Position numbers and translations under genes: made by a program. The notes beneath the pieces are model-generated. The model was not told the origin of the DNA, ran no database searches, and was given only the letters and a program-made list of their open reading frames with translations. 64,000 bases of DNA from a virus, in the IMG/VR virus record IMGVR_UViG_3300032294_002612, positions 102,537-166,536 of that record; one strand, 5' to 3'. This document shows, one piece after another, positions 7,298 through 64,000 of this stretch (position 1 is its first letter; the number at the start of each line of letters is the position of its first letter).

Positions 7298-7324
7298 ATT
7301 AATATTATATAACTTTTCAGCCAA

Positions 7325-8128: not shown

Positions 8129-8129
8129 T

Positions 8130-9523: not shown

Positions 9524-9527
9524 ATAG

Positions 9528-12897: not shown

Positions 12898-13051
12898 AAT
12901 CTGAAGGTTTTACATCCATTAGTTGTTTTTTATTACAAAAATAACCCTGAACTTCATAATTACCGCCTTGGCATGAACATCTTTTTATAGTTTTTGAAAC
13001 GACATCCGCAGAACGGAAAATGCAAGTTTTATGTTTTTCTTCACTATTCAT
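12866..13051 (-). CDS. Cys-rich small protein, possible zinc ribbon
   Basis: 61 residues with six cysteines: Cys10, Cys25 and Cys27 (RCSCQGG), Cys39, Cys53 and Cys56 (DCESC). The spacing CxC with CxxC suggests a bound metal, likely zinc, without matching a named family. A promoter with a perfect TATAAT ends 6 bases before the ATG, so the gene may head its own transcript into the RecA and sugar block. The function is unknown; a small DNA- or protein-binding regulator is possible. Confidence 0.65.
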   Translation of the reverse strand: MNSEEKHKTCIFRSADVVSKTIKRCSCQGGNYEVQGYFCNKKQLMDVKPSDCESCTEYQHK

Positions 13052-13057
13052 AACTAT

Positions 13058-13087
13058 ATTATATTACATTTTTATAATCATTGTCCA
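13058..13087 (-). promoter_or_regulatory. sigma70-like promoter, Cys-rich/recA/sugar block
   Basis: On the minus strand TGGACA, 18 bases, TATAAT, 6 bases, ATG of the Cys-rich gene. It overlaps the last codons of the upstream gene for GDP-mannose dehydratase. The perfect -10 box and the same -10 to ATG distance as three other sites in this window support function. The transcript would begin at or next to the ATG. Confidence 0.5.
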
Positions 13088-14114: not shown

Positions 14115-14538
14115 ATTCTTCATCGTCGTCTTCATTATCTGTTGGCTCATATTTTTGTTGACTATCTAAAGTTTTAAGGTAAAATTGTTCTATTTGATTT
14201 ATTATGTTATTATATTTTTCTTGATATATTTCAGTACTTTCTGTTATTTCGTCTTTATTTTGAAGAGCTGAGTAAAATACATTTTTAGGGGAATTTAATA
14301 TATCATTAATTATTTTTAAATCTGAACTTGCTATATTTTGATTAGCAAATTTTTTCCATGTTTTTATAAATTCTTGATGAACATGCTTGTCTTTAAAATC
14401 ATTTTCTTCATTTATATGGTTAGCAATATAATTAAAACAAAAAAATAACATTGACAATTGAAGATTTTGCATAAATTTAGTCTCCAATGTTTGATCCATT
14501 GAATCCCGTAGATTTTTATGCAAATCTTTGTTTTTCAT
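14107..14538 (-). CDS. Hypothetical protein, acidic C-terminus
   Basis: 143 residues, not recognised. Mostly helical by composition, with a phenylalanine-rich stretch (SMLFFCFNYIANHI) too short and polar to be a clear membrane anchor, and a very acidic tail (DNEDDDEEYA). It shares one base with the end of the ribonucleotide reductase gene and overlaps the dehydratase, so the three are translated as one unit. The acidic tail could mimic DNA or bind a partner; this is speculation. Confidence 0.6.
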   Translation of the reverse strand: MKNKDLHKNLRDSMDQTLETKFMQNLQLSMLFFCFNYIANHINEENDFKDKHVHQEFIKTWKKFANQNIASSDLKIINDILNSPKNVFYSALQNKDEITESTEIYQEKYNNIINQIEQFYLKTLDSQQKYEPTDNEDDDEEYA

Positions 14539-25537: not shown

Positions 25538-28500
25538 TTATAAATTTTTAATACCAGTTATTCTAAAATTATAAGTACCTGTATTAGTAGGACTTCCAGT
25601 TGGAAATAATAAATTATAATTTAAATCTTTAATTTTTATATTGGCAACATCAAGAATATCATTTTCATCTGTATTTAATTGATTACTATATTGAACTAAT
25701 ATTTGTAATAAATTTGTTTGATCTGGAAAATTGCCAGTATTGAAATATCTACCATTTCCACTTAATAAATTATTTCCCAAGAAAGAAATAAAATCCAAGT
25801 CTTGTCCAGTTTGCAATCCCCATACACCAGTAAATGTTCTGACACCCGTAAATGTAGGCACGTTGCCAGTAATAGAACCAGAAGCTTTTTCATAATAAAA
25901 TCCTGTAGCAATACCAAAACCATTAGCCGTACCAGAAAAAATTGTTGTTGGGTATAAACGTGGATAAAAAGTTTTACCACCTGTTAAAGAATTTGAACTA
26001 AAAATAATACCGCTACCGTTACCCGTAATAATTATGTTATTGCCTTCGCTACCAAGACTAAAATCGTTTGCAATTAATAATATTCCAGTATTATTTAGTT
26101 TAATTCCAGTGCAATTAAATAGATTTGGTGAATTATTAATAATAGTAATTAACGAATCAGTATTATAAAAATAATCTGGAGCAAAATAAACACCAGTATT
26201 CGTATGATAATTAATACTTGTACTGTTTATTGCCAATAAATCAAAATTTTGAATTCTATTATAGTTTATAAAAATAGTTCCACTTGCTTGTTTATAACCC
26301 GTTGGAAATGGATAAAATGGGTAATTGTCTTCGTTAACATATACACCACTACCAGTAACCCCAGTACTAAAAATAAAATAGCCACTATTAGAAATTCCAC
26401 TTATATACCCACTTAATATAAATAATCCGGTAACATTATTTTCTATATAGTTAATTCCAGTTAAAAGCCCCGTAAACAATCCACCAGAAATGAACTCTGA
26501 ATATTGTGGTGGTATATTTAGTCTTCCACCAAGGAGTAATTCTTGATTTATAATAAAATCTTTAATTGCAATTACGCTACCAGAAAGAATTCCGCTACCC
26601 GTAAATAAACCCGAAAAATCTTTCCTAAAAGAAACTTCTTGTGTTGATGGATTATAAAAATAACGATTTCCAAACGTATGATTAATAAAACCAGTTCCTG
26701 TAAAAAAACCATTTACTAAACCAGTTAAGTCTCCAACTATTCTGCCAGAAGAATTTACAAAAGAAATATTTCTTTCTAGACTTGTTGGAGTATAAGTCTG
26801 TATTTGATTAAAAGCTTTATATACTCCTTTTTGATCTTCACTACTTAAAACATAATTAAAATTTGTATCAAAATTTTTAGCAACTATATCTTGAACATCA
26901 ACAGTATAATTTGCACCAATTAGACATTTCGCATCTCCAGTTAAAACTGGAATGTTAGCAGATTTTAAAGAAAATAAATTAATTGTAGATATATAAATAT
27001 CATTAGTTGGTTTAATAAAAAGAACTTCGGGCCCAACCTTTAAACCAGAAAAATCTCTTAATACTACTCTATATCCTGAAAAGTTAACACTTTCATGCTT
27101 ATAATCTGGAGCAGTTAGGCATGTAAGATATTGTCCACTTGGATTTAATACCCAACCAGTTCTAGCAATATATAATTTTGCTTCTATGGGTTTAATACCA
27201 CTTTCAACTTTTTCTTCTTCTTCTTCTTCTTTTTCTTTTTCGCCAGATATTTTTGGTTCTTTACAGGGATTGAACCCCTCTGGCCAACCTGTTGGCTGAA
27301 CAACAAAAATATTTTGAATTCCTGTAATTTGAGCGCAAAATGGTGGTCCTTGTGATTTATTTGTTTTCTTAAATTGATTTAAAGTTTTAAATCCACCACT
27401 TAAAAAAACCTCTTCAAAATCTTCGGTTGTTTCTTCTTGAACACCAGTTTCTGCATAAATAACATCTTGATTTAATAAAATTTTATCAGATACAATAACG
27501 TCTAGTGTTTTTTTATCTATAATACCAGTTAAATCATGATAAATTCCACTATGTCTATCCAAAATCATCCATTGGGAGCCAGTTAAACCCTGAAGCTCAA
27601 TAACATTTGGAATTAGATATGAAAGACCTTTTCGAACATGATCTTTCTCTAAATTTCTCACATATTCATCCCTATTTACTAAACTTAGTTTATAACTAAA
27701 ACCACTGGCATTATTTCTTAATGATTTAAATTTAATAACATTGTTATAATTTTGATCTCCAGTTGGTATAGAAAGATCTTTTTCAAAAAATACTAAAGAA
27801 CCAGTTTTATAAATCCCTTGAGATTGTCCAGATAAACATAAATATGGATACCATAATTGTATAGATTTATTTTCGTAAAGACGATTATTTAAAACATTGA
27901 CTAAATCATCTATACCAGTAAAATCATTTGGAAATGTTAATTTAAAACCAGTTGACGGATAAATAGGATTATTTCCTAAATGATATTCTTTATATAAGCC
28001 TGTGTAATTATATGGATATAATTGAAATTCTAAAGAATCTCCAGTAAAAAAACTATTATAAAACAAATTTCCGGTTTGATAATAGAATAAATTTTCAATT
28101 GTAACGCCACTAGAAATAGTTAAATTTGAAGCAGCGTCAAATATAACTCCTTCCGGATCTTTTTTACCACTATATTTTTCAATAACTCCAGATAAAAATA
28201 ATTTATACTCTATTCCGGTAGTATTATTACCAGTCCAACATTCAGTGGCATCTTCTGGCAATTGTCCTGGATCTGGACAGTCTTCCCTATTAAAACAAAA
28301 TCCAATATAATCACGAAATGAAGATTCTAACCCGGTACTCAAAATTGGAAAAGCTAATTTTTTTAAATATTCAAATGGGCTTACTTCTGTGCCGCCAATA
28401 AGAAGCATACCCTTTTTTGTTTCTAATTTACCAACAACGTCAATTGCATATGAAAATACATTTCTAGTATTATTTACCATCCCAGTAAAAGTATTGTAAG

Positions 28501-29260
28501 ATGCCCATGCTTTTTTTTGCAATGGATTCTTTACATCTACATCTGGCGGAGAATCTGATAAAGATTGTATCAAAATTTTTTGTTTGACTAGGGACCCACT
28601 TAAAAAAGATTCTTTCGTTCCATAATTAATATTATATAAATTTAAATTTTCTATTTCTGATTTTTCTAATGGTGTTCCACCGAAATCTTTTAAAACGATT
28701 CCCGCATCTGCTCCTGAAAATCCTGTAAAATTATATTTTGAAAAGTCTCCAAAATATTCTGTCCAGCTATTACCACTTTTATAAAATCTTTTATTTTTAT
28801 CTATATTTAAAAATGTATCTGATGGATATATATATATGCCACTTCCAGTTCCCAATGTTGCTCCCAAACTTACTGCTGCAATTTCTTTTAAAGTTTGATT
28901 CTGTCCTCCGAAAGTACCCAAATAAATTTTATTTTGAAAGTCGCTTCCAGACACAAGTGGAGAAGATCCACTTCCAGAAAAAGTTGAAAATAAAGATATT
29001 TTTGATATTCCAGCGTTATTTGAATAATTTACTCCCCCATTGTGTAATAATTGAAAATCAATTCGTAATGATTTTGGACTTTCGGGCGGCGTTGGTTGTG
29101 ATGGTATTCCGGAAGGTATAATTAAAATAGCGGTATTAAAAGTAGGTCCAGCCTGTATACCACTAAATAACAATCCTGTAATTTCATTGGGTATCGAGTC
29201 AGAGCCGGAAACACCAATTCCGCCCCATCCATATAAATACCCTGTACCTTGATTTACCAT
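25538..29260 (-). CDS. Large Thr/Gly-rich tail protein
   Basis: 1240 residues. The first 50 residues (GYLYGWGGIGVSGSD ... IQAGPTFNTAIL) resemble a single RCC1 blade, linking it to the RCC1/BNR gene upstream. Most of the protein is built from short beta segments punctuated by TG, SG, FTG and TGS dipeptides, as in GFFTGTGFINHTFGN, and is probably an elongated beta structure. A Glu-rich stretch (EKEKEEEEEEK, about 678-688) divides it. It lies among the distal tail genes, so a tail fibre or tip protein is likely. A GTGTAA element and an AT-rich leader precede the ATG. Confidence 0.65.
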   Translation of the reverse strand: MVNQGTGYLYGWGGIGVSGSDSIPNEITGLLFSGIQAGPTFNTAILIIPSGIPSQPTPPESPKSLRIDFQLLHNGGVNYSNNAGISKISLFSTFSGSGSSPLVSGSDFQNKIYLGTFGGQNQTLKEIAAVSLGATLGTGSGIYIYPSDTFLNIDKNKRFYKSGNSWTEYFGDFSKYNFTGFSGADAGIVLKDFGGTPLEKSEIENLNLYNINYGTKESFLSGSLVKQKILIQSLSDSPPDVDVKNPLQKKAWASYNTFTGMVNNTRNVFSYAIDVVGKLETKKGMLLIGGTEVSPFEYLKKLAFPILSTGLESSFRDYIGFCFNREDCPDPGQLPEDATECWTGNNTTGIEYKLFLSGVIEKYSGKKDPEGVIFDAASNLTISSGVTIENLFYYQTGNLFYNSFFTGDSLEFQLYPYNYTGLYKEYHLGNNPIYPSTGFKLTFPNDFTGIDDLVNVLNNRLYENKSIQLWYPYLCLSGQSQGIYKTGSLVFFEKDLSIPTGDQNYNNVIKFKSLRNNASGFSYKLSLVNRDEYVRNLEKDHVRKGLSYLIPNVIELQGLTGSQWMILDRHSGIYHDLTGIIDKKTLDVIVSDKILLNQDVIYAETGVQEETTEDFEEVFLSGGFKTLNQFKKTNKSQGPPFCAQITGIQNIFVVQPTGWPEGFNPCKEPKISGEKEKEEEEEEKVESGIKPIEAKLYIARTGWVLNPSGQYLTCLTAPDYKHESVNFSGYRVVLRDFSGLKVGPEVLFIKPTNDIYISTINLFSLKSANIPVLTGDAKCLIGANYTVDVQDIVAKNFDTNFNYVLSSEDQKGVYKAFNQIQTYTPTSLERNISFVNSSGRIVGDLTGLVNGFFTGTGFINHTFGNRYFYNPSTQEVSFRKDFSGLFTGSGILSGSVIAIKDFIINQELLLGGRLNIPPQYSEFISGGLFTGLLTGINYIENNVTGLFILSGYISGISNSGYFIFSTGVTGSGVYVNEDNYPFYPFPTGYKQASGTIFINYNRIQNFDLLAINSTSINYHTNTGVYFAPDYFYNTDSLITIINNSPNLFNCTGIKLNNTGILLIANDFSLGSEGNNIIITGNGSGIIFSSNSLTGGKTFYPRLYPTTIFSGTANGFGIATGFYYEKASGSITGNVPTFTGVRTFTGVWGLQTGQDLDFISFLGNNLLSGNGRYFNTGNFPDQTNLLQILVQYSNQLNTDENDILDVANIKIKDLNYNLLFPTGSPTNTGTYNFRITGIKNL

Positions 29261-29302
29261 ATAATAATAAATAATTACACTTATTACTCTTAATTTTAAT
29301 AA

Positions 29303-31609
29303 TTAATCATTATCAAAATAAAAATTAATACATGGAGCTGGTCCCGATGGCGGTTCTTGTATATCTGGAAACGTTATGTTTGCAGTACCAGTTGATCTAG
29401 GATTTTGTGTTAGTAATAAATTATGAAAAAAACCTGCTGACACATCATTAATTTTATCACCTGAAATATCATATTGAATATCATATAAATTACTTGCTAA
29501 ATTTATAGTCTTATCACCCCATGAATAGAACTTATAATCATCAGAAACTATAAAATTTTTAGTAAACGGATTATAAATCATCATAGACCCAGTTTTGCTT
29601 GCGATAATACCAGTTCCTTCTTTTCCATAATTACAATTGACATATATAGAACCATTAAATATATCATTTGTAACACTTGTTTGGTATTGGCCATTTTTAG
29701 ACATAGCAATCGAAGACCAATTTTTTGGCGTAAAAACTTTTTTCCATGAAAATCCAAAATCTTCACTTCTATACAAATATTCATTTTGTACAGCTACGGT
29801 CATATAACGACCATCATTCGACATCGCACAGCCATTAATAATATCATTTGTCAGAATATTTAAGCCAGTTACAATAGACCAAGTGATGCCAGTATTTCTA
29901 CTAATAAGCGAATACCCTTGAATTGGAACTAGTAATTGTATATTACCACTACTGGACATACAAGCATCTGCCCATTTTATATTATAACCAGTTATACCAC
30001 TCCAAGTTTGACCGAAATTAGAACTCACAAAAAAACTTCTATTAAATTCCGGAGCACCTATGACATTATACCGGCCCGTAGCAAATGCTGCTAATTGATA
30101 CCGACCATTTTCAGACATTGCTACGGCACTAAGATCACCAGAAGCGCCCGAAAATTCTCTCCACCATAATCCAGTTTGTCCTGGAATTACATTTCTTCCC
30201 GTATATATATTTCTATATAATTCGTAAGCAGTATTATCAATAGTTCTACTAACTGCTGTAATGTATTGACCACTATTTGACATCGCAATTTGTTTCCATC
30301 TCCTATACGGAGTAGAATTATCAGACCAAGTTAACCCAGTATTATAACTAATATATATAGAATCAAAATCAGTTGTAACTGCTTGTATATTTCCTGATTG
30401 AGACATCGCAACAGATTTAAATCTTTTTAAACCAACTCCGCTACCTGGATCAAAGTATAATCCAGAACCAGTATTAATACTCCATGTTTTTCCATAATTA
30501 TTACTACTATATAAATAACCAGGCTCTATACCAGGAGAGCCAGTACTAGATATCGCTAACTGATATCTTCCATCATAAGATAAAGCAATATCTATAAAAG
30601 ATCTTGGCGTAGAATATTGTGTAATTTGATTCCATCCAAGATATTCACATCCAGAACTATTTCTATTTTCAATTATTCTAACATAATAATTTTGATTATT
30701 TATTGGAAAATTATTGCCAGTAAGAATATTTTGATTATTAAAGCCAGAAAAAAGATTATCTTGCCAAGTTACTCTATCTAAAGATGTTTGGATATTCAAA
30801 CCAGTTATCCCACTACCAGTTCCAATATATGACATAATCCATTGTGATAAATCGTTACCAGTTTGAATACCAGTTATAATTGGATATGCTAACCCCATAA
30901 TTAAATTATTATCATTATTAACAGAAATTTTGGCTCCAGAATAAATAATGCTAGAATCATAATCTAATTGCCCATTTGAGTTATCTCCCCATCCAGTAAT
31001 AAAACCATTATTTAATAAAGCTAAACTATGATTATTACCAGCCGCAACTTGATTCACAAAAGGCAAATTATTTGGTATTTTTAATTTATTAAAACCCGTA
31101 TCACCCCATCCAGTTATTTTTCCAGAACTATTCAAAACCAAGATAAAATTATTTCCAGCTGATATTTCTGTATATCCAGTAGGATAACTAACCAAAGGTT
31201 TTCTATGAAAACCATTATCTTTAAAATATAACCAATCAATTACATGACCAGTCATTCCAGAATATTGTTCTATATTCAAAAGATCGCAACCATATCCATG
31301 TATCTTACCTTTATCATCAATTAAATACGTTGAGGCGTTTCCAGCGTCAAAATCGATATATCTAAAATTTTGACTAATTTGCGTTTCTCCACAAAAATTA
31401 TCACCCCATCCAGTTGTTACTACATAATTTATACCACTAATAGCAAATTTAGATTCTGAAATAATATGACTAGTTCCAGCAGAAACTTTTGTTGTATAGG
31501 GAATACCACTAATTAAATTTCTATTTATTCCAGTTATTTTTCCAAACGCAAATGGAGGGTTTAAAACCCTCGACTCGTTTGACCCCCAAATTACAACGAT
31601 ATTATTCAT
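29303..31609 (-). CDS. Tail protein with RCC1 propeller and inserted BNR/Asp-box repeats
   Basis: 768 residues. Residues 1-235 contain RCC1-type blades (TTGWGDNFCGET, KIHGYG, KITGWGDTGFNKLKI, FITGWGDNSNGQL with AGNNHSLAL). Residues about 330-690 are BNR/Asp-box-like repeats of about 50 residues (SSNFGQTWSGIT, ISRNTGITWSIV, YRSEDFGFSWKKV) each followed by WxxIAMSxxGxYQ. A final RCC1-like blade follows (FYSWGDKTI ... VSAGFFHNLLLT), so the Asp-box propeller seems inserted in the RCC1 propeller. No sialidase catalytic residues (RIP motif) are visible. Likely a receptor- or glycan-binding distal tail protein. Confidence 0.7.
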   Translation of the reverse strand: MNNIVVIWGSNESRVLNPPFAFGKITGINRNLISGIPYTTKVSAGTSHIISESKFAISGINYVVTTGWGDNFCGETQISQNFRYIDFDAGNASTYLIDDKGKIHGYGCDLLNIEQYSGMTGHVIDWLYFKDNGFHRKPLVSYPTGYTEISAGNNFILVLNSSGKITGWGDTGFNKLKIPNNLPFVNQVAAGNNHSLALLNNGFITGWGDNSNGQLDYDSSIIYSGAKISVNNDNNLIMGLAYPIITGIQTGNDLSQWIMSYIGTGSGITGLNIQTSLDRVTWQDNLFSGFNNQNILTGNNFPINNQNYYVRIIENRNSSGCEYLGWNQITQYSTPRSFIDIALSYDGRYQLAISSTGSPGIEPGYLYSSNNYGKTWSINTGSGLYFDPGSGVGLKRFKSVAMSQSGNIQAVTTDFDSIYISYNTGLTWSDNSTPYRRWKQIAMSNSGQYITAVSRTIDNTAYELYRNIYTGRNVIPGQTGLWWREFSGASGDLSAVAMSENGRYQLAAFATGRYNVIGAPEFNRSFFVSSNFGQTWSGITGYNIKWADACMSSSGNIQLLVPIQGYSLISRNTGITWSIVTGLNILTNDIINGCAMSNDGRYMTVAVQNEYLYRSEDFGFSWKKVFTPKNWSSIAMSKNGQYQTSVTNDIFNGSIYVNCNYGKEGTGIIASKTGSMMIYNPFTKNFIVSDDYKFYSWGDKTINLASNLYDIQYDISGDKINDVSAGFFHNLLLTQNPRSTGTANITFPDIQEPPSGPAPCINFYFDND

Positions 31610-31614
31610 ATTAA

Positions 31615-34600
31615 TTAATTATTACAATCTTCTAGTAGGCACGCTTCTAATGTTATTGTGATTTTAAGATCTGGAGCCCCAGTTCCTACAGAAGCTAAAC
31701 AATCTTCAAATTCATAATTGACAGTATTTCCAGCAGTACCTATATAACTACACGCAGAAAGCCCCCCTCCAGAAGCTTTTCCTTCGCAAAAATCTTTTGG
31801 TGGACAACTAACGGTAAGACTTACATTTGCTTTTTGATCGGCTATGCTTTTCATATCACCATATCCGCAAGAACCATCCCAAGCAAGACTAGCATTTGTG
31901 GTGCAATTAGGGGAACCTAAGACACTAGAAGATATATTTACTATTTTCCAACAACGCTCTTCGCCTGGATCATCAATACATTTAAAACATGCTTGTGAAT
32001 AACAATCAAAATAACTACCATCATTATAAGACCATTGTCTTTCATATCTAGTATCACAATCATCAGGTGGAACTGGCGACCACCCATTTCCTAAAGTACT
32101 ACAAGGACATGCTCCCACTGGCGGAGGCGGTTCATCGATAAGTTCACATTCGTAACATTGTGTTTGAACACAAGAACATGATTTTTGTTCTTTTGCTACC
32201 AGTTTATAATTTTTTCCAAAAACCGAACAGTCAAAATCGGCTTCTCTTAAACCAAAATAGCGACAGCATTTACATGTTTCTATAGGTTCAATTGTAATAT
32301 CTTTTGTAATATCATATCGTTTTGAACGTACTCTATACCCACCAACACAGTTATCACAAGGTTCTTTAAAAATTCCTCGGCCATTAGCATTAACTCTTAT
32401 AGAGCTTGTACATTCAGGTATTAAGTTATTTAAAGAAACACTCCTTTCTCCTGCGCCATTTGTAATTATTGTGCCGCCAGCATTAACTCTTATACTCACC
32501 GAAGTACTATCACAGTTTGTAGCAACACCAATTCCACCAGTTAACTTTTTATTACGTGGATTATTTGGCAAACATTGCGCAGAAATTCCAAATGTATTTA
32601 TTTGAATTGATCCTTCTTCTTCGAGACAAACGCCATCACCCTCACCCGTTCCAATATCGCCCACTGGAAAATCGCCAGCACCAATTCCATCACCAGCGCC
32701 ATCACCAGCGCCATCACCAGCGCCATCACCAGCGCCATCACCTGGGCCATCACCTGGGCCATCACCTGGACCAACTAAATCAGGAAAAATTGGTGGTGGT
32801 GGAGGTGGCGGGTCAAGTAAAAAATCTGCATTCCTGAGATCTTCACCCAAAAACCCACTTGGATATGATGGTAATAAAATACTCTCATTATTAATTGTAG
32901 CAATACAGTTAACTCCAGTACAACAATCTACGGAGTCATCATCTAAAATAATAAAATTTGCAGTAGACCCGCTTATTTCTAAAGATTCAATAATAACCTC
33001 TGGATGTGAATATTCAATACTATTTTGATTTAAATTTAAATTTATATTACCATTCCAACTTGTTTGAAAACGAGTATTTGGATAAATTTTAAAACCAAAT
33101 GTTTTTTGAATTTCACCGGGATTAAAAGAAAAGTTCCATTTTAAACCATCTTTTAGCACAGCATCTGTTACCATTGGATAATTAGGTCCTGTAAATTTTA
33201 ATAATACATCTCCAGAAATACTAAAATCAGTAAAACGAGAAGTGTCTTTTTCAACAGTAAAAGCAAAAAACCTATCTTTTTCACATCCGGTATAAATATT
33301 ATGCGTAAAACCAATTCTAGGGGTAGTAAAAATTAAATTAGTATAATCCTGATATTTGCTTATAACTGTATAGTTACCAGTTGTTGCTTCACTTAAATTA
33401 ATAAATAATGTTGGACTACCTAAAATTTTAGTAGGATTAATTGGATTATAATTAAATAATCCACCAGATTGAATTGTAATTAACTTTCTAATACGAGTTC
33501 CAGTTTCTAAAACAACTACATTTCCAGTACTCCAAAATCCCGTAGTATTATTGGAAAAGTAGCCAGAAACAACCCCAAGAGGAGAATCTACATTTCCACT
33601 TATTGTATTCCGGTTTCCAAAAACTTCTCCTATATTTATGCCACTAAATCGTTTTCCACTTTCAAAATCATTTTGATAAACTTCATTAATTAAAATTGTG
33701 CCAGTTCTATTTGTATCGAATCTTAATCTAAAAGTATTTAAATCAGAATATTTTCCAGTAACAGCAAAATCAATTTCAGAAAAATCTTGAATGTTAAATA
33801 AGTTATATTGACCAGAAGAATAAATAATTTTATTTGATGGTAAATCTACTATTTTAGTTACAGATGTAGATGGGATAGTTTCTTTCCAACCGAAAAATGA
33901 TCTGGCATAACCAGTTTTTTTATTATCTAGTCCTGTAATAAACTGATTTCCAGTAAAAGTACTTTCTTGGAATAAATTATCGAATATGCCCGTTCCATTA
34001 ATAGTATTTCCTAATCTAGAAATTCTTGTTCTACCACCAGTTGGCTGATTAGTAAATATAGAAATATTGCCAGAATTAATTACAAAATTACTATTTTCAT
34101 ATATGTATTCAGCTTTATTTACTGGCAAAGTTGGAAAAATAGATACTGGATACGGAACTCCATTAGGAAGTTTCCCTGGAAATTGTGGAATTCCAGTGCC
34201 AGTTAAACCAAAATTTAAATCAATCTTACAACCCATCGCAATAACTTGTTGATTGATTATTGTAGAAACAAAACCAGTAATTTCTGTTGGGCTGTAAGTA
34301 ACTTCTATTGGTTCAAAACCAGTTGCTTCTTGAATAAAACCCGAAACCTTTCCACTGAAAGGAATTGAAAAATTATAAATACCTGGATCATAATCTTCAC
34401 TACCAAAATCTGCTTGTAATTTTCCAGATTTTCTAATTCCAGTCGCAAAACCAAAACCAAGTAAGGTCAGTCCAGTATAAAAATTTCCAACTACATATCT
34501 TACTGGACTACTTAGATTTACAAGTTCATATTCGTCAGGGTTAAAGTTAGCAATAATATTACCAGTCCATTGTTTAAAAATAGTATGAATACCATTAATT

Positions 34601-35784
34601 AATCCTGTTTTTTGTTGATTAAAAATAAATCCAGTACCAGGAAGACTTGCAAATCCAGTTAAAAATCCACCTTGATAATTTAAAAAACCAGAATATAAAA
34701 CATTATCTTTATAACCGGATGCTAATATATTAGTAGTAAAATTTACATCTCCTTTTCCAGTAGCGAGGGTTTGATAAAAACCACTTACTAATTGGTTTTC
34801 AGCGATTTTAAATGCTGAAAAGGATCCAGACCCAGTTCCAAATTCGAAACCATTTCTTAAAGAATTAAAGCCACTAATCCTACCAGTTAAATTATTTTGT
34901 ATAAACCCCTGTCCAGAAACAATACCAGACACAATACCTGTTAAATATCCAGTTCTTTGTACATTACGATAATAATCTCCCGTAATACCAGAACTATACT
35001 CTAAAGATATTTCGATATTAGAACCAGATGCATTTGCAAAAGAAAGATTATATATAAAATTTTCACCATTAAAAATTGTATTTGTTGGTGGGCTAATATT
35101 AATATAGAATAAATTATCTTGAATTAACGTACCAGATAGGCTGATATACAAACTTTCTGTTCCGATATTCGAGAAAAGATTAATATTAACAATTTCAACG
35201 CCATTTGAAAATGTCCCATTATTGATAATAAAAAAATTTGACGATCCAGTTGCTGGAACAATTAAATTGTTTACCCCGCTTATGCTATAATTATTACTAA
35301 CAATCTCTCCAGAATAAATTACAATTGGGTATTGGCCGCTATTCCGTAAATTAATTGGAATTTGATCTCCAGAATTATATGTTATATTCGAATTAAAATA
35401 ATAATCTGGTTGATCTCCTAATATTGCTAAAGAGTCAATATTTAAAGTTGAATTTTGAGATTCTATAAAAAATCCCAAAAGATTGCCCGTCTGATTTCTG
35501 CTGACCCCAAGATATAAAGGATCGCCATTTTGATACAAATCTAGAGTTGTATTTGTAACGTTTCCAGAAAAATTTATATTTTCATTTAAATTAAACCCGC
35601 CAACAAAATCATTATTTTTTGAATAGATTTTATTATTCTTTAATTTGAAAACCAGTTCATTTGCATTTTGTCCAGAAAAGTAAAAATTATAATACCCATC
35701 AATATTAAATGGTGTACAAATTTTTTGCCAATTAATATTAACTTGTGGATATATTGATCTAATTTTATTTCCAGTTATAATCAT
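31615..35784 (-). CDS. Large tail protein with Gly-Asp repeats and Cys-rich C-terminus
   Basis: 1389 residues in four zones. Residues 1-270 are beta-rich, with a choice-of-anchor-D/HYDIN-like part (INLRNSGQYPIVIYSGEIVSNNYSIS). Residues 270-920 are TG/SG-punctuated. A segment ending FIILDDDSVDC looks like a Calx-beta domain end. Then a Pro7 run and seven GDGP/GDGA units (encoded at 32687-32770) lead to a C-terminal 310 residues with about 28 cysteines. The Asp-Gly repeats may bind calcium. The Cys-rich end is unusual for a protein folded in the reducing cytoplasm. Probably a fibre or tip protein. Confidence 0.65.
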   Translation of the reverse strand: MIITGNKIRSIYPQVNINWQKICTPFNIDGYYNFYFSGQNANELVFKLKNNKIYSKNNDFVGGFNLNENINFSGNVTNTTLDLYQNGDPLYLGVSRNQTGNLLGFFIESQNSTLNIDSLAILGDQPDYYFNSNITYNSGDQIPINLRNSGQYPIVIYSGEIVSNNYSISGVNNLIVPATGSSNFFIINNGTFSNGVEIVNINLFSNIGTESLYISLSGTLIQDNLFYINISPPTNTIFNGENFIYNLSFANASGSNIEISLEYSSGITGDYYRNVQRTGYLTGIVSGIVSGQGFIQNNLTGRISGFNSLRNGFEFGTGSGSFSAFKIAENQLVSGFYQTLATGKGDVNFTTNILASGYKDNVLYSGFLNYQGGFLTGFASLPGTGFIFNQQKTGLINGIHTIFKQWTGNIIANFNPDEYELVNLSSPVRYVVGNFYTGLTLLGFGFATGIRKSGKLQADFGSEDYDPGIYNFSIPFSGKVSGFIQEATGFEPIEVTYSPTEITGFVSTIINQQVIAMGCKIDLNFGLTGTGIPQFPGKLPNGVPYPVSIFPTLPVNKAEYIYENSNFVINSGNISIFTNQPTGGRTRISRLGNTINGTGIFDNLFQESTFTGNQFITGLDNKKTGYARSFFGWKETIPSTSVTKIVDLPSNKIIYSSGQYNLFNIQDFSEIDFAVTGKYSDLNTFRLRFDTNRTGTILINEVYQNDFESGKRFSGINIGEVFGNRNTISGNVDSPLGVVSGYFSNNTTGFWSTGNVVVLETGTRIRKLITIQSGGLFNYNPINPTKILGSPTLFINLSEATTGNYTVISKYQDYTNLIFTTPRIGFTHNIYTGCEKDRFFAFTVEKDTSRFTDFSISGDVLLKFTGPNYPMVTDAVLKDGLKWNFSFNPGEIQKTFGFKIYPNTRFQTSWNGNINLNLNQNSIEYSHPEVIIESLEISGSTANFIILDDDSVDCCTGVNCIATINNESILLPSYPSGFLGEDLRNADFLLDPPPPPPPIFPDLVGPGDGPGDGPGDGAGDGAGDGAGDGAGDGIGAGDFPVGDIGTGEGDGVCLEEEGSIQINTFGISAQCLPNNPRNKKLTGGIGVATNCDSTSVSIRVNAGGTIITNGAGERSVSLNNLIPECTSSIRVNANGRGIFKEPCDNCVGGYRVRSKRYDITKDITIEPIETCKCCRYFGLREADFDCSVFGKNYKLVAKEQKSCSCVQTQCYECELIDEPPPPVGACPCSTLGNGWSPVPPDDCDTRYERQWSYNDGSYFDCYSQACFKCIDDPGEERCWKIVNISSSVLGSPNCTTNASLAWDGSCGYGDMKSIADQKANVSLTVSCPPKDFCEGKASGGGLSACSYIGTAGNTVNYEFEDCLASVGTGAPDLKITITLEACLLEDCNN
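32687..32770 (-). repeat. 12-bp tandem repeat, seven units
   Basis: Seven tandem copies of a 12-base unit, CCATCACCAGCG on the plus strand (three units have CCTGGG or CCTGGA in the second half), encode GDGA/GDGP on the minus strand. The first four units are identical. The repeat lies directly after the poly-proline segment of the 1389-residue tail protein and is likely a spacer or calcium-binding stretch that can vary in copy number. Confidence 0.85.
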
Positions 35785-35799
35785 GATTAGTTAATTACA

Positions 35800-38499
35800 T
35801 TAGTTTTGAATATACCCAACAGCTGTTCTAATATTATTTACATTATTTCTTGTTACCGAGTTTAGATATCCAATATTTTGTTTTGGCAATAAACTATCTT
35901 TTAAATATTGATTAAAATAATCATCAGATGGAGGTTGAACAATTAAATCTTCAAATGAGTATGATGTATAAACTCCATCATCTGCAATTGTAATTTGTAC
36001 AGAAGATAAACCTTGTGAGCAATTATATCTTAAAGGAAAAATACCCGCTGTTTTGAAAGACATTGTATTTTGAGCTTCTTGCATACTATATTGAGAAAAT
36101 TCTGAAATACGTTGAGCATAAAGATCAAAAGCTTGCTTTGAGATTAAACATCTATTATTGTTTAAAAGTGAAAGATTGTCTTCTGTAATTTGTTTTAAAT
36201 TATAGTCTATTTTAGCCACATTAAAACTTGAAATATTTTTAGTATATACATACTGTATTTTAGGCAAAACTTTAGTAAACTCAGCAGAAGATTTAACGTA
36301 AACAGAATAACCAGAGCTACCATCGTCTGTGCCTAAATTAATATCTTGATTATCAAATCTATCGACTTTCTCTTCTTCTGTTTTATCTCTTGTATCATTT
36401 TTTACTATTTTATTATTACCAAATGACTGTGCTGGACAAAAAAATGTTATACCACGATCCCCACCAAATTTAATTTTTACGGCTTTTGGATCTCTAAGAC
36501 CCCACGCACCTTTTTTGACCACAATTGTATTACCTAAAACGTCTTGTTCTTCTTCAGTTCTTTGTTTCCTTGTCTTGGGTTCTAAAGGGTGTGGTTCTAC
36601 AGAAAATTCTACATCAAAACCATTTTTTAATTCTCTACACATGAATAACTTAATATTTTTATTTTTAGCCGCTTCAGGATGTAATTGAAATAAAAATTCT
36701 GGACGACCATCTGCAGTAGAAAAAATTTGTGGAGTTACATCTTGAAACCATTTAAATAAGGAGTCATAATATTGTAAAAAATCTTCATTTGGAAACCATT
36801 TACCGTCTCTTTCCAATAAAATAAAAGACTTTAAATTTTTTAAAGTCGTATTATCTTGTGTAAATGATTTGGCAGCCGCGCGATACAATTGTTCTAATCT
36901 ATCATTTTCTTTCGCGTCTTTTTCGATTTCTTTTGCTAATTTTCCAATTAATGATTTTTCTTGATGTCCGAAATTAAATATAGGTAATCCTTTTAAATCC
37001 TCATCTGTTCTTTTCCATGAAACACTACCATCTGGAGACTCAACACTAACTTCACCGTTTGAGTTTGATGCTCCAGGAACTTTTGTAGAAAAATTTTTAA
37101 ACCAATATTTTCCTAGAAAATTTCTAGCTAACTCAACATCGGAATCGTTTTGTTTTTTTGCAAGCTCCTCGTTAACCTCTGCAACAAAAAAGTAATAAGA
37201 ATAATCTCCCTGCGCGTACCCATTTTTTTTGTCTTCCGCTGTTAATCTATCACGATCAGCTTTTTGCATTCTATTTTGACATGCATTAAATTTTTGTACT
37301 TGATCTGGAGTTCCTTTCGCATGGTATACGTCACGAATTTTCATATCTCCAAGATATTTTAAAATTTTAGTTTTTAATTTTAAATCGTTTTCTTTATTTG
37401 ATTCTTCTTCTTCTGTCGATTTATATTTATTTATTAAATCTTGAGGCGTATTAATTTGATAATACCAAAACCATAAAAAGACATTTCTTGCTGACACTCC
37501 AAGGTAAGAAACTGCAGTAGTTAATTCTCTTATATCTGACTCATTGGGAACGGTTTCATTTGATAAACCTGTTGATTTATCTGGTTCGTATAAATCAGAT
37601 ACCGTTAAACACCTTACTGTTTCAATAGTTTCATTTGTGCAGGTATAATTTTTAATCCCGCCAGCTTTTTCAAAATTGCCAATAAAACCACGAGAAAAAG
37701 TATTTAAAATATTTTTTCCTTCATTTAAATCAATGATTTGCCAATTTGTTGGTGCTTGTGGAATTTTTATTGGTTTTGATCTATCAATAAAAACTAATTT
37801 TGCAATAAATGGATCCCAATAATAGGAAAGACCTAAATCAGCGCACCAACTACTTAATACACTTTTTAAAGTGCCTACATGCTGAGCTTTATAATTTTTA
37901 TATCTTTCTCGACCTTGTATCTGAATACTAAATTCTGTAGGTATTTTGCTTATCAACTCATTGAAAGTATAGTAAACATCATATATTTCAAAATTACTGA
38001 GAACTGGGTCGCAAGAAAAATCATATTTATCTTCTGGCATGAAAGGACATGGGTCGCAATAATCTATTTGTCTTTCTGAACTTTCTGTATAATTTATGGA
38101 TGAATCTAAATTTTTATCACATGGATGATAAGGCTTTCCAACTAGAATTAAACGTGGCGTTGTATTTCTATTTTTATCTCCATGCTTAGTATGTAAACCA
38201 ACATACCATTTATCTAAATTTACAGCTTTATCAACATATTCTAATTCTAATATTTTTTGCGACGGAGTGTTATTAAAAGAATAACCAACCAAGAACCCTT
38301 CAAACGCAAAATTTCCTATTTGGATACGCTCGGTTTTCGTAAATGTGGGAGTTGGAGTTTGATACACCCCATTTTCACTAACAACATTTATTGATAATTT
38401 TGAAGGTTCTTCCCCATTATTAAAACTCCAGTTAATACTATATGGTAAGCCACCAAAAAAATTTCCACGAACTTGGTTAATATCAATTAAACGTTGCAT
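35800..38499 (-). CDS. Tail hub/baseplate-like protein, putative
   Basis: 899 residues. The N-terminal 100 residues are beta-rich (LPYSINWSFNNGEEPSKLSINVV, FEGFLVGYSFNNTPSQKILELEYVDKAVNLDKWYVGL), similar in style to the first domain of phage hub proteins. A Cys-rich insertion follows (HPCDKNL, YCDPCPFMP, SCDPVLS), then GTLKSVLSSWCADLGLSYYWDPFIAKLVFID, which strongly resembles the shared core of gpD/gp27-type hub proteins, where a helix is followed by the hub strand pair. The rest is helical and Lys/Glu-rich. It sits between the LamG-like protein and the large fibre-like proteins, matching a tail tip hub. Confidence 0.55.
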   Translation of the reverse strand: MQRLIDINQVRGNFFGGLPYSINWSFNNGEEPSKLSINVVSENGVYQTPTPTFTKTERIQIGNFAFEGFLVGYSFNNTPSQKILELEYVDKAVNLDKWYVGLHTKHGDKNRNTTPRLILVGKPYHPCDKNLDSSINYTESSERQIDYCDPCPFMPEDKYDFSCDPVLSNFEIYDVYYTFNELISKIPTEFSIQIQGRERYKNYKAQHVGTLKSVLSSWCADLGLSYYWDPFIAKLVFIDRSKPIKIPQAPTNWQIIDLNEGKNILNTFSRGFIGNFEKAGGIKNYTCTNETIETVRCLTVSDLYEPDKSTGLSNETVPNESDIRELTTAVSYLGVSARNVFLWFWYYQINTPQDLINKYKSTEEEESNKENDLKLKTKILKYLGDMKIRDVYHAKGTPDQVQKFNACQNRMQKADRDRLTAEDKKNGYAQGDYSYYFFVAEVNEELAKKQNDSDVELARNFLGKYWFKNFSTKVPGASNSNGEVSVESPDGSVSWKRTDEDLKGLPIFNFGHQEKSLIGKLAKEIEKDAKENDRLEQLYRAAAKSFTQDNTTLKNLKSFILLERDGKWFPNEDFLQYYDSLFKWFQDVTPQIFSTADGRPEFLFQLHPEAAKNKNIKLFMCRELKNGFDVEFSVEPHPLEPKTRKQRTEEEQDVLGNTIVVKKGAWGLRDPKAVKIKFGGDRGITFFCPAQSFGNNKIVKNDTRDKTEEEKVDRFDNQDINLGTDDGSSGYSVYVKSSAEFTKVLPKIQYVYTKNISSFNVAKIDYNLKQITEDNLSLLNNNRCLISKQAFDLYAQRISEFSQYSMQEAQNTMSFKTAGIFPLRYNCSQGLSSVQITIADDGVYTSYSFEDLIVQPPSDDYFNQYLKDSLLPKQNIGYLNSVTRNNVNNIRTAVGYIQN

Positions 38500-38504
38500 A
38501 TATC

Positions 38505-40304
38505 TTAAAGGTTAAATAAACTATCATTATTATAAATAATATCTATATTATAATCAAAAAATCCTACCCCAGTATTAGAGTCAAATTTAGCTAATTCTAA
38601 ATAATCTGAATTTAGAGTTTGTCTAACTCCATTTCTATATATTTCAGATAAATTATACAAATAAGGAATATTGGTATTGAATATATTCTTAGACCCTGTA
38701 ATTGTATAATTTGTTGATTTGAGAATACCTAATAGTTTGCCACTAGCCCCGCTAAATAAATTATTAAATATAATAATATCTGAATTCGCACCACTAAAAT
38801 AATTAACATTTTGTGTTAATTTTTGGCCATTAAAATAAAAATTATAAAGATTATAGTTCCACCCATTTAATGAGGTAGTTCCTGGCGAACTAAAATTTTC
38901 TATATATAATCCAGAATTATAACCTGTTACAAAATCGATAAAAACACTATCATTTTCATTATATTGATTTGCAAAAATAAAATTATTTATTTCATCTAAA
39001 TAATAATCATTAACAATATATTGTGCTAAATTATAAATATTACCAGTATTATAAAAAACGCCAGAATGTTTTAATTGACCATTAACATAAACAATTGGAA
39101 AAGAATTTTCCGAAATATCTTCTAACAAACTGAAATTATTGGCGTATTTTTGATAATCTAAATTAATGTTTTTATTTAAAGGATTTATTGCAATATTAGT
39201 ATTTAAATTAATATCAATTAGATCTTCAGCGTCTATTTTAGATAACAAATTAATATTGTTCTTGCCAAACAAATTAATATAACTATCATTTTTTACAATG
39301 CTTTCACCACTAATACCCGTAATCTGTTCAAAAGCAATGATTCCAGTTTGCCCAGTAATTCCGAAAAGAACAATTGTGCCAGTAATACCGCTCTCAAAAT
39401 AACCAGTATATTCTACGCCCCACTCATTTGTTAATATTCCAGTTGGTATTAAATTTGTGCCCGTAACACCAGTTGTAAAACCCGTTATACCAGACACATA
39501 TCCAGTAATTCCAGTTACTAACGTGGTTTCAATATTAACTTGTCCAGAATTATAAATATAAGCAATACCACTATTTAAATTTACTAAATCATAAGCATAT
39601 AAAGAAGGGGAAAAAATTAATAAGTTTTCAAAAAAACCGGTATAATTTTTATTAAAATTATAACTATTATTTGTATTTGGATTATATCCAATAAACATTT
39701 TTGAATAGTCAAATAAATAATCCGTTAAAATATAATTATTATTTGAAATCAAGCTGTTTCTGAAAAAATCATAATAACCAAAAGATATATTATTTTCAGT
39801 AACACTCAAATATATGGAATTTTTATCCGCCAATGTAAAATCACTAATAAAAATGTTAGGACCATTATCTCGATAATATTCAAAAAATAATCGATTATTT
39901 GCAGTTATACCAAATTCAAAACCTTTATATATAAGATTTGTTTGGGGTGACCCGAATTCATTGTAAGATATAAAAGTACCTGTTTCAATAGTTGATAATA
40001 ATGTTCCGCCACCAACATTTTTATTTTCATATACCAAGCTTATTGTTAAATCCTTATTATTTATAGAATAATTATTTATTCCAGTAAATTCAACGTATCG
40101 ACCACCAGAAAAATATCCAGATCCCGTATTTTGCCAAAAATTTCCTACAGAAGGTTTTATAACACCGCTGAACGAAAGGTCGCCGCTTTTATTAAACAAA
40201 GCAGATAGGTTTGAATTATTTGGTACAAAATCAAAATAAGCGCGGCAAGATTCACTTGCAGTGCTAGCGATTTGATTTAAAAAATAATTTATTGCGTTAG
40301 GCAT
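38505..40304 (-). CDS. LamG/concanavalin-like tail protein
   Basis: 599 residues. Residues about 18-250 look like a laminin-G/lectin-like jelly roll: CRAYFDFVPNNSNLSAL, YFSGGRYVEFTGI, DLTISLVYENKN, FEFGITANNRLFFEYYR, IYLSVTENNISFGYYD, KMFIGYNPNTNNSYN and FFENLLIFSPSL, in the expected strand order. The second half is TG-rich (GITGYVSGITGFTTGVTGT) and then Asn/Tyr-rich beta segments. It lies between the hub-like gene and the two paralogous 530-residue proteins. A glycan-binding tail component is the likely role. Confidence 0.6.
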   Translation of the reverse strand: MPNAINYFLNQIASTASESCRAYFDFVPNNSNLSALFNKSGDLSFSGVIKPSVGNFWQNTGSGYFSGGRYVEFTGINNYSINNKDLTISLVYENKNVGGGTLLSTIETGTFISYNEFGSPQTNLIYKGFEFGITANNRLFFEYYRDNGPNIFISDFTLADKNSIYLSVTENNISFGYYDFFRNSLISNNNYILTDYLFDYSKMFIGYNPNTNNSYNFNKNYTGFFENLLIFSPSLYAYDLVNLNSGIAYIYNSGQVNIETTLVTGITGYVSGITGFTTGVTGTNLIPTGILTNEWGVEYTGYFESGITGTIVLFGITGQTGIIAFEQITGISGESIVKNDSYINLFGKNNINLLSKIDAEDLIDINLNTNIAINPLNKNINLDYQKYANNFSLLEDISENSFPIVYVNGQLKHSGVFYNTGNIYNLAQYIVNDYYLDEINNFIFANQYNENDSVFIDFVTGYNSGLYIENFSSPGTTSLNGWNYNLYNFYFNGQKLTQNVNYFSGANSDIIIFNNLFSGASGKLLGILKSTNYTITGSKNIFNTNIPYLYNLSEIYRNGVRQTLNSDYLELAKFDSNTGVGFFDYNIDIIYNNDSLFNL

Positions 40305-61527: not shown

Positions 61528-63738
61528 TTAATTTATAAAAAGCTGGGATGGGAAAGATCGTGTTTTTATTGCCCCTTGGGAACTTGCGCAGCTATTAACA
61601 CAAAGTATTGCATAATACGTATGAATACCTTGCCCAATTCCACACTGAGCAAATGTTAATCCAGGAATAATTTGTCTTTCCCCCCCACCAGCTAAAATTG
61701 CTTTATAATAAGGTTTTCCAATATTAGCTAGACTACCACACCTAGTTGGATCAGCTAAATAAGAACCTAGTATTGCCGAGCCACATAAAGAAGTTGGATA
61801 AGTCATATAGCTGTTTACTGTATAATTACAATCAAAACCATTAGGTACAATATCACTACTATTAAAATTTGTATTCGGAACTCCTATACAAACCGTACCA
61901 CCACCAACGCCTACTAAAGTAGCATTACCACCACATTCGGGACATATAGCTGATGTAGATTGCACCAATGTTGATGAATTACGACTGGGACTACTAGTGA
62001 CATTAGCAGATCTAACACGTATGTAATAAGTAGTGTTAGCAGATAACCCTGTTACAGTTTCACTATTAGTACTGACAGCTTTATCATTATAGCCGGGAAC
62101 AAAATTTGTAAAACTAGAATTAGTAGCTATATCAAGACGATACTGGTTTGCGTTAGGTACGGGATTCCAATTTAATGTAAATCCAGAGGTTGTGACGCTA
62201 GAAGCCGTAGGCTGATTAGGCATTGCTGAAGCCGTAGTTCTTCCAATATATTGCGAGTTATTACTTATTCCATCTTCATTTGCTGCTCTAACTCTTACCC
62301 AGTATGTAGTAAAAGGTAATAAATTAGTAATGCTTTGGCTTGTGCCATTTACATTTAAATTATTATAACCAGGAACAAAATTTATAAAAGTATTTCCTGT
62401 AGCAACATCAAGTCTATAATTTATGGCGTTTACAACACTATTCCAATTTGCTGTAAAACTTACATCGTTAACGTTTACTGTGCTAGGTTGATTTGGTGGT
62501 ACTGGAATTGCGGTACTTCTTCTACTAATTGCTATGTCCATCCAATCTCTAAAACCATCTCTTTGGGACCAAGTATTTCCATAATCATTAGATCCATACA
62601 GTTCTGATATACCATTAGCAATTTGATATTTTCCATCGCCATTCATATCGATATTATACCATCTTTTCGGAGACTCTAGTATTGGACCTTTTGGATTCCA
62701 AGAAGATCCATAATTATCTGAAATCCATATTCTTCCATTACTTGCTCCATCAACAATACTTTGATATTTACCATCATTACTTACGGATATATCAATAAAA
62801 GCGGCATTTGGTGAAACTGTTAAAATATTAAAAGAAGTACCCGAATTATTAGAAATAACAACCCCTCCTTGGGTAAAAAAGGCAGATAAAGTTATGTATT
62901 TGCCATCCGCGCTCATACCAACACTAGTGTATGAACCAACTCCGATATTTGCTCCAGACCATGTTTCTCCATAATCTTTTGAAATATATAATCCGGAAAA
63001 TAAACCTTCAGATCCTGGACCTCCAACATATGTATTTGTAACTTGAAATTTACCATCCGAAGAAACGCAAAGATTTACTAAATTACCATTATTAGGTACA
63101 GAAAATTTTGGATTCCAAGTATTTCCATAATCATTAGATACATAAATATTATTAGGAAGAAGGTCTTCATATGTAAAATTATTTCTAGATATTATAGCTG
63201 TTTGATATCTGCCGTTACTACTCATTGCTACACGATACCATGCTCTTGGGGTGCTTATTTTTTGAATGAAATTTTGACCAGAATCATTAGATACAAATAT
63301 ACCACCACTACTAACAACGGCTGTTTGATATTGAGCATTGGAACTAAGAGCGACCCCTCGCCACTCTAATACTGCTCCAGTTGCTAACCACGATTGGCCA
63401 TAATTGTTTGATAAATAAATTTTACTTTCAGCCTGTTTACTTGCTGCTATTTGATATCTTCCGTCATTTAATGTATTTTCATCATCTAATTGTAATTCGC
63501 TCCATGTATAATTATAATTTGTATTAGAAACTATATTAGTATTTGAATTGGGCTCCCAGTTAGCGATTATATTACCATTAGTATAAGTAACCCTAAAACC
63601 ACTTAAAGTTTTACCAAAAGGATTATCAATAAATTGCCATAAATTTCCTTGAGGAGAAGGCCAGACTAAGGTTCCCCCCATATATAAACGATTAACAATT
63701 CCGCTCCCTAAATAAAAATTATCAGCCTCTTGTAACAT
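61528..63738 (-). CDS. Tail adhesin: BNR/Asp-box repeats, two fibronectin III domains, Cys-rich end
   Basis: 736 residues from the ATG at 63738; an in-frame TTG at 63750 overlaps the upstream gene and is unlikely. The N-terminus NFYLGSGIVNRLYMGGTLVWP resembles a phage structural anchor. Residues about 100-410 hold Asp-box repeats (KIYLSNNYGQSW, GIFVSNDSGQNF, IYVSNDYGNTW, LYISKDYGETW) with the AMSSNGRYQTA link. Two fibronectin type III domains cover about 415-510 and 512-600. The final 130 residues carry 10 cysteines. It is a likely host- or glycan-binding protein. Related repeats occur in the 768-residue tail gene. Confidence 0.7.
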   Translation of the reverse strand: MLQEADNFYLGSGIVNRLYMGGTLVWPSPQGNLWQFIDNPFGKTLSGFRVTYTNGNIIANWEPNSNTNIVSNTNYNYTWSELQLDDENTLNDGRYQIAASKQAESKIYLSNNYGQSWLATGAVLEWRGVALSSNAQYQTAVVSSGGIFVSNDSGQNFIQKISTPRAWYRVAMSSNGRYQTAIISRNNFTYEDLLPNNIYVSNDYGNTWNPKFSVPNNGNLVNLCVSSDGKFQVTNTYVGGPGSEGLFSGLYISKDYGETWSGANIGVGSYTSVGMSADGKYITLSAFFTQGGVVISNNSGTSFNILTVSPNAAFIDISVSNDGKYQSIVDGASNGRIWISDNYGSSWNPKGPILESPKRWYNIDMNGDGKYQIANGISELYGSNDYGNTWSQRDGFRDWMDIAISRRSTAIPVPPNQPSTVNVNDVSFTANWNSVVNAINYRLDVATGNTFINFVPGYNNLNVNGTSQSITNLLPFTTYWVRVRAANEDGISNNSQYIGRTTASAMPNQPTASSVTTSGFTLNWNPVPNANQYRLDIATNSSFTNFVPGYNDKAVSTNSETVTGLSANTTYYIRVRSANVTSSPSRNSSTLVQSTSAICPECGGNATLVGVGGGTVCIGVPNTNFNSSDIVPNGFDCNYTVNSYMTYPTSLCGSAILGSYLADPTRCGSLANIGKPYYKAILAGGGERQIIPGLTFAQCGIGQGIHTYYAILCVNSCASSQGAIKTRSFPSQLFIN

Positions 63739-63739
63739 A

Positions 63740-64000
63740 TTAACCAACAATTACATAAAAAGTTGCGGGATCTTTCGGGGAAAGTAAATTATATTCGTTT
63801 TGAGTTAATTTTATAATATTTAAAACTGTTTGATTAGTTGTAATTAACCCACTGGTATTCACTATAGGACGCGTATTAAAACTTTTCGTACCGCTAATCG
63901 TTTGATCTCCAGTGGTAAAAACAATGTTTTGCAAAGACGCGCCAGCAGCTTCTCCCTGTAATAAAACGCCAGTTCCATTTACGGACGGGCGAAGCGCAAA
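63740..64000 (-). CDS. Tail fibre protein, partial (5' end outside window)
   Basis: The frame is open to the right window edge: 86 residues and a stop are present, and a TTG at 63934 is an internal codon, not the start. The sequence contains RPSVNGTGVLLQGEAAG and GDQTISGTKSFNTRPIVNTSGL, repeat units found in the beta-helical shafts of tail fibres. It ends LSPKDPATFYVIVG, a common end of such modules. It lies upstream of the BNR/FN3 gene and is co-transcribed with it. Confidence 0.75.
   Translation of the reverse strand, partial: FALRPSVNGTGVLLQGEAAGASLQNIVFTTGDQTISGTKSFNTRPIVNTSGLITTNQTVLNIIKLTQNEYNLLSPKDPATFYVIVG

Follow-up and report, generated by a model that had tools for sequence, protein, structure and literature searches.

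An Asp-box propeller very probably nested in an RCC1 propeller of a likely phage tail-tip protein, with an outer ring that may be shared between two genes

A 768-residue protein of an uncultured phage very probably carries one beta-propeller inside another, with an Asp-box propeller set within an RCC1 propeller. By our reading of its repeats, the outer RCC1 ring seems to be one blade short, and the protein of the next gene starts with an RCC1-like unit that may supply the missing piece. The gene lies in the window, by which we mean the whole stretch of DNA analysed here (64,000 nucleotides), itself within a viral record of 166.5 kb.

Results

The ORF starts with an ATG codon, its limits are exactly 29303..31609 on the minus strand, and it is one of several large minus-strand genes that follow each other after the tape-measure gene (43538-49420), on its downstream side. 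Considering this gene order, the 768-residue protein is likely located at the tail tip. The putative tube-type protein of the window (51560-52660; a provisional name, the family search giving no match) found no match in 50,697 phage records, and by this search no close deposited phage was found for the window phage. In genome contigs, its single relative (37%) belongs to a MAG that carries the name Halobacteriovorax. As an anchor it gave 212 relatives in viral contigs, of which the best 80 were kept. In the records searched, the 768-residue protein was matched in 2/2 and 12/50, mostly via its Asp-box or RCC1 parts alone. Direct search of viral contigs returned no relatives of this protein or of its 899-residue neighbour, and genome contigs held none of the latter. 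Among named phages, the 768-residue protein was matched at residues 5-215 only, in PS6 and SCTP-2; the 899-residue protein, the tube-type protein and the Asp-box region of the window paralogue were without match there.

Table 1. Positions in the window of the two genes, their predicted parts and the Asp-box paralogue
Feature	Window coordinates	Strand	Basis
768-residue ORF, RCC1 propeller probably interrupted by Asp-box propeller	29303..31609	minus	ORF call, Pfam, motifs
Putative N-terminal half-blade, strands C-D, IVVIWGSN, residues 1-36	31502..31609	minus	Sequence reading, aligned to start of G014 275-residue protein
RCC1 blades 1-4, residues 38-220	30950..31498	minus	Pfam RCC1_2, blastp to G014, AlphaFold strands 39-208
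Putative RCC1 blade 5, A-B half before insert, residues 224-240	30890..30940	minus	Reading against G014; pLDDT ~30
Connector opening the insert, residues 241-322 (~80 residues)	30644..30889	minus	
Asp-box propeller, the insert, seven predicted blades, residues 323-661	29627..30643	minus	Pfam, motifs, AlphaFold, Foldseek, VIA-align
Putative RCC1 blade 5, C-D half after insert, KFYSWGDK, residues 690-712	29474..29542	minus	Sequence reading
Putative last half-blade, A-B, INDVSAGFFHNLLL, residues 713-737	29399..29473	minus	blastp to G014, local RCC1 profiles
C-terminal tail, PP..PC...Y like that of the G014 orthologue, residues 738-768	29306..29398	minus	
Next gene, 1240-residue tail protein with RCC1-like unit at its N-terminus	25538..29260	minus	
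Putative RCC1 unit, order C-D then A-B, residues 5-48 of next protein	29117..29248	minus	Homology to G014 unit
Asp-box paralogue, 740-residue protein, Asp-box region then two Fn3 domains	61528..63750	minus	

The protein belongs to the RCC1 repeats by its Pfam RCC1_2 match (E 7.7e-14, 51.5 bits against a cut-off of 22). Two further families lie below their cut-offs: the RCC1-like PF25390 over residues 80-217 (E 6.8e-17, 62.3 bits, cut-off 150) and PF00415 (20.8 bits, cut-off 21.7). The best solved sequence match of the RCC1 part is BLIP-II (1jtd, E 7.8e-13). Toward the ends of the chain the matches are weaker: the N-terminal half-blade reaches E 0.05, and residues 690-749 match the RCC1 region of one relative (L201) at E 0.002.

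In the middle of the chain, the Asp-box family BNR_6 is matched at E 6.3e-6 and 26.2 bits, just below the cut-off of 27. Five strict Asp-boxes (S-x-D/N-x-G-x-T/S-W) lie at residues 369, 421, 529, 570 and 615. They are accompanied by seven AMSxxGxY-type motifs at 342, 401, 442, 497, 550, 595 and 635, spaced by 40-59 residues; together they suggest seven Asp-box blades. The middle region is homologous to the 740-residue paralogue in the window (30% over 310 residues, E 4e-23), which puts the Asp-box assignment far beyond chance. Between the RCC1 blades and the Asp-boxes lies the connector, which the initial annotation had passed over. It has no Pfam match, its pLDDT is 26-35 up to residue 320, and its outside matches are weak (best E 0.006 in L169, L170, L128 and L133, and 0.009 in L214); by eye it is possibly an Ig-like sandwich.

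The AlphaFold query was the 768-residue chain extended by read-through into the following gene. Mixed alignments of RCC1 and Asp-box proteins were misplaced by MAFFT; the 24 rows of the alignment used (A19) were chosen for correct placement, from 60 random sets followed by stepwise growth, and the model (mean pLDDT 58.1, pTM 0.49) thus comes from a selected alignment. An earlier model from a three-row alignment (A16; mean pLDDT 29.9) was discarded. In the retained model, residues ~323-661 form a closed propeller with ten-residue mean pLDDT of 62-97, except for 39-55 at 461-490 and 511-520. Foldseek gave YCF48 (5ojr) as the best solved match of this domain (E 3.9e-15, TM 0.71 by target length, 15% identity), and VIA-align gave a WD40 chain (4jxm; Z 29.6, rmsd 2.8, 294 aligned) and a seven-bladed design (7big; residues 324-662, Z 29.2, rmsd 2.6, 283 aligned). 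The Asp-box domain is thus a closed propeller in the prediction; matches to YCF48, WD40 and a designed protein identify its fold, not its function. RCC1 strands are modelled at 39-208, with block mean pLDDT of 50-83 except for 26-35 at 111-140. The last 185 residues of the model (664-848), which cover the RCC1 segment at ~690-737, have pLDDT of about 24-37, so the support for this segment comes from its sequence and from the orthologue described below.

The two RCC1 parts are joined by a syntenic relative. In a related record of 154 kb (G014), both neighbours of the 768-residue gene have orthologues, and between these stands a 275-residue RCC1 protein that lacks the Asp-box region. Residues 8-221 of the window protein align with it at 31% over 216 residues (E 9e-19), the last half-blade region (residues 720-765) aligns with its residues 237-272 (blastp E 2.8e-5), and the C-terminal tails of the two proteins are alike. 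An orthologue in the same place and free of the insert means that the two RCC1 parts, N- and C-terminal, belong to a single domain; about 450 residues were gained in the window protein, or lost in G014. By chance adjacency, residues 690-737 would lie outside the first propeller, and the protein would be an RCC1 and an Asp-box propeller in tandem with an unrelated tail. The short C-terminal RCC1 match and the low pLDDT of 664-848 agree with such an arrangement; the shorter orthologue ends in the matching segment and the tail with no second domain between, and we regard chance adjacency as very improbable. The insertion point appears to be blade 5, between strands B and C; the exact hairpin is our best estimate, as the alignment is gapped there and the model is poor.

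Our confidence in the nested architecture is accordingly high. The initial annotation had proposed it, with RCC1 blades first, Asp-box repeats in the middle and one RCC1 blade at the end, and had named an AlphaFold model as the check. The order holds, with RCC1 at 38-220, Asp-box at 323-661 and RCC1 at 690-737. The order of Pfam matches and motifs, the closed Asp-box propeller at ~323-661 in a model that also has RCC1 strands at 39-208, and above all the insert-free orthologue in G014 support the proposal.

The same combination was sought elsewhere. In 42 Asp-box ORFs (the query and 41 relatives, some near-identical), BNR_6 was found in 38, the lower-baseplate domain BppL_N in 12, and RCC1_2 in the query only. 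At 16 RCC1 loci collected with a two-row query, G014 included, 15 ORFs had no strict Asp-box and one, a 3156-residue ORF (L202), had a single one. Records near the window's own may have been left out of both scans, so closer relatives may exist. No RCC1 ring with an Asp-box insert, and no split phage propeller, appeared among the matches listed in open-licence literature, at the level of titles and the beginnings of abstracts.

An RCC1-repeat propeller usually has seven blades per chain. Partly by eye, both the 768-residue and the 275-residue protein would consist of five whole blades, a C-D half at the N-terminus and a C-terminal A-B half. This reading gives each chain six RCC1 blades at most, and the outer ring thus seems one blade short. 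RCC1 profiles recover only part of the window and G014 blades; one profile set was trained partly on these same blades, and the half-blade profiles are weak. Countable single-chain relatives are mostly, not all, seven-bladed. Seven RCC1_2 stretches each were found in L199 and L208, seven RCC1 stretches in S-SRM01, and seven C-D motifs each by profile in L204, L212 and G053. A text pattern gave seven each in L200, L201, L205, L207, L209, L210 and L213, which are near relatives of L199 and L204; the same pattern undercounts L208 (3) and L212 (6). Other numbers of stretches occur in BUCT-ZZ01 (13) and Jenst (6), and by text pattern in L202 (10), L211 (13, with positions in two clusters), L214 (4) and the truncated L203 (3). 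The count of PS6 is unclean (seven by one profile set, eight C-D by another), and G017 and L155, with six and five profile hits, were read as seven by eye. That phage RCC1 arrays of other blade numbers exist lowered our odds for a split ring, that is, one completed in trans by the docking of a unit from the next gene, from 0.5 to 0.46.

This unit is found at the N-terminus of the 1240-residue protein. The corresponding neighbour in G014 (1495 residues) begins with a homologous unit, 48% identical over 58 residues. The rest of the alignment between the two proteins is at 39.6% identity; that the unit is conserved no less than this speaks against a relic in decay. With a profile built from 51 C-D/A-B segments, the unit of G014 reaches 19.5 bits, a value attained by 0/2000 shuffles, and it stays below the Pfam cut-off (RCC1_2 13.5 against 22 bits, E 0.068). 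The window unit has no Pfam match and scores 0.1 bits with the segment profile, reached by 720/2000 shuffles and exceeded among the N-termini of 48 other window ORFs used as controls (up to 2.1 bits); with the weak half-blade profiles, 55/1000 shuffles reach its score. A profile of both N-termini was then used to search 19 RCC1 proteins together with 182 decoys. The best match is the 434-residue RCC1 protein of G053, at residues 189-229 (iE 1.1e-5), which are one whole C-D/A-B unit. Among the decoys, the 1389-residue neighbour ranks first (iE 0.009; E 0.0007 for the whole protein) and stands above all RCC1 proteins but that of G053, meaning that TG-rich composition lifts scores in this search; four of the 19 RCC1 proteins had any stretch with iE <5. 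The unit thus appears RCC1-like; this is clear for G014, and for the window it follows from homology.

Both window ORFs are in the same frame, with a TAA stop and 14 further codons between them, and fused forms exist in relatives, as would be expected if the stop were an assembly or frame error and the true product a single chain. Such an artefact is hardly credible, as G014 has the same split with its two genes in different frames, and both first proteins (768 and 275 residues) end in a similar tail.

A five-row profile of the 1240-type protein found orthologues in 4/50 and 0/32 records (82 searched), and a further scan added L155. Many of these 82 records are fragments, so misses show little. 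The six proteins found come from the window, G014, G017, L155, G053 and G003. In the window and G014, the short RCC1 gene is separate and the unit is on the second gene. In G017 and L155 (L157:7582-12528 and L155:6667-11637), RCC1 forms the N-terminal part of a fusion with the 1240-type protein, and both fused proteins have an insert of ~130 residues in the B-C hairpin of blade 2, as positioned by eye. G053 has a separate 434-residue RCC1 gene and a 1240-type protein without the unit, and in G003 neither RCC1 at the locus nor a unit was seen. On this sequence reading all six would fit the rule that the unit occurs only beside a short RCC1 gene, the informative split cases being two phages. L199-L201 had also been considered as fused orthologues and were set aside, homology being clear only for L200 and in a non-RCC1 region (iE 3.8e-10).

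Discussion

We propose the following arrangement. The RCC1 blade 5 would be opened between strands B and C by the connector and a complete seven-bladed Asp-box propeller. The 1240-residue protein would begin with exactly the C-D/A-B pair that is absent from the 768-residue chain, and this N-terminal unit may dock in the gap, giving two hybrid blades and a seven-bladed ring. Docking would pin the 768-residue protein to the 1240-residue tail protein, and the Asp-box propeller would project from the ring at the tail tip, serving in binding or decoration. In its full form, this would be a seven-bladed RCC1 propeller made by two adjacent tail genes, cut at a B-C hairpin and forming a docking cradle, in which the same kind of hairpin also accepts whole domains (in blade 5, the Asp-box propeller; in blade 2 of G017 and L155, ~130 residues). 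We put this full form somewhat below even odds.

The chief alternative is a ring that closes by itself. In it, the C-D pair at the N-terminus and the A-B pair at the C-terminus of the 768-residue chain would join in a Velcro closure. The RCC1 propeller would then be closed with six blades, its blade 5 bearing the Asp-box propeller, and the unit of the next gene would be a fission leftover or make some other contact. Sequence reading puts the two ends of the chain in the phase that such a closure needs. Taken alone, the unit of the window is weak, G053 has a separate RCC1 protein although its 1240-type protein is without the unit, and phage RCC1 arrays are not always seven-bladed. However, most countable relatives show seven blades, the unit is kept at 48% between two diverged phages, and it corresponds exactly to the part that the ring would lack. 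A closed ring with the unit as a relic is therefore a serious competitor, with a probability of the order of one third. The split ring also bears on the circular closure across the insert that had been claimed at the outset. The part of this claim by which the two halves make up one domain stands; closure within one chain is probably incomplete: by our reading the chain has no more than six blades, and the next gene encodes a further unit.

As for function, the initial annotation had suggested that the two propellers present two different glycan-binding sites on the tail tip. The position of the gene downstream of the tape-measure gene would suit two independent lectin-like propellers. RCC1 proteins are present in the virion proteome of phage W70, according to an excerpt of PMC11370258, and this together with BppL_N in 12 of the 42 Asp-box ORFs makes a surface role plausible. 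Against such a pair of lectins, Pfam at E up to 1 lists no sialidase or carbohydrate-binding family for the 768-residue protein, and the top solved fold in Foldseek is YCF48, solved with D1 peptide. With the WD40 fold at the top of VIA-align as well, the two glycan-binding sites are left unsupported, and we consider this explanation unlikely.

The RCC1 part shares its blade motif and family match with the RCC1/BLIP-II propellers (RCC1_2, PF25390). It differs from them in having a whole second propeller in one blade, and in a chain that is apparently one blade short with a further unit on the next gene. By the model, the insert has the same Asp-box propeller fold as YCF48-type proteins; here, the propeller is an insert in another propeller, and no photosystem role is implied. 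Insertion into a propeller has precedents. Excerpts of PMC10665379 describe the split WD40 propeller of AMBRA1, where a very long insert lies between strands b and c in one blade of a seven-bladed ring; that insert is a disordered region of 650 residues within one gene, whereas the present one is predicted to be a folded propeller. In type 2 Asp-box sialidases, the propeller is interrupted by a whole inserted domain (PMC2716378, in part); there the Asp-box propeller hosts the insert, while in the 768-residue protein it is the insert. For the proposed completion in trans, the closest analogy is with Sec13 and Seh1, open rings closed by the seventh blade of a partner (domain invasion motif), which fixes the orientation of the partner, according to an excerpt of PMC9646525. 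The proposed ring would likewise be open and completed by a donated blade, its docking being deduced from sequence. Sec13 and Seh1 are WD40 proteins of eukaryotic coats that receive a whole blade, whereas here two half-blades would be donated to an RCC1 ring in a phage.

In the literature consulted, this blade-exchange joint has so far been described for eukaryotic coat-type complexes; if the docking is true, it would be added to the assembly modes of phage tail proteins. The suggested adapter principle would be a ring holding interchangeable modules at the tail tip, in an uncultured phage group. With fused forms, split forms without and with the insert, and forms that lack RCC1, the relatives would then make a natural series for tests of how evolution cuts propellers and joins them again, and the RCC1 B-C hairpin would be a general site where phages cut, fuse and load tail-tip modules.

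Several further observations were made on these genes and their relatives. Ser-Gly and Thr-Gly dipeptides are in strong excess in four tail proteins within 25538-40304 of the window (z scores from 500 shuffles per protein): 25538-29260 (z 15.5), 29303-31609 (z 8.8), 31615-35784 (z 9.2) and 38505-40304 (z 10.0). The excess is absent from the 899-residue protein among these genes (z -1.9), the tape measure (0.9) and the 740-residue paralogue (-1.0). In G003, the orthologue of the 1389-residue neighbour (L125:11948-16270) ends in an Asp-box region, meaning that the Asp-box module moves between tail genes. A protein of Synechococcus phage BUCT-ZZ01 (UTS52180.1, L216:4557-6659) is annotated as 'BNR repeat domain protein', and its 13 stretches found by Pfam are RCC1; it was rejected as a second case of RCC1 with Asp-box, since Pfam, with E up to 0.01 allowed, gives RCC1 repeats only and BNR nowhere. 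A 1050-residue protein of G027 (L147:951-4103) has very similar tandem RCC1 repeats, with similar matches in G028 and G040. In seven of the 16 RCC1 loci (L204, L205, L207, L209, L210, L211 and L213), the RCC1 array is inside an orthologue of the tube-type protein, with matches to that protein on both flanks of the array. Finally, at 4615-14150 the window has a run of genes that resemble, by eye and from their first residues only, methyltransferases, sugar-transfer enzymes and sugar-nucleotide enzymes.
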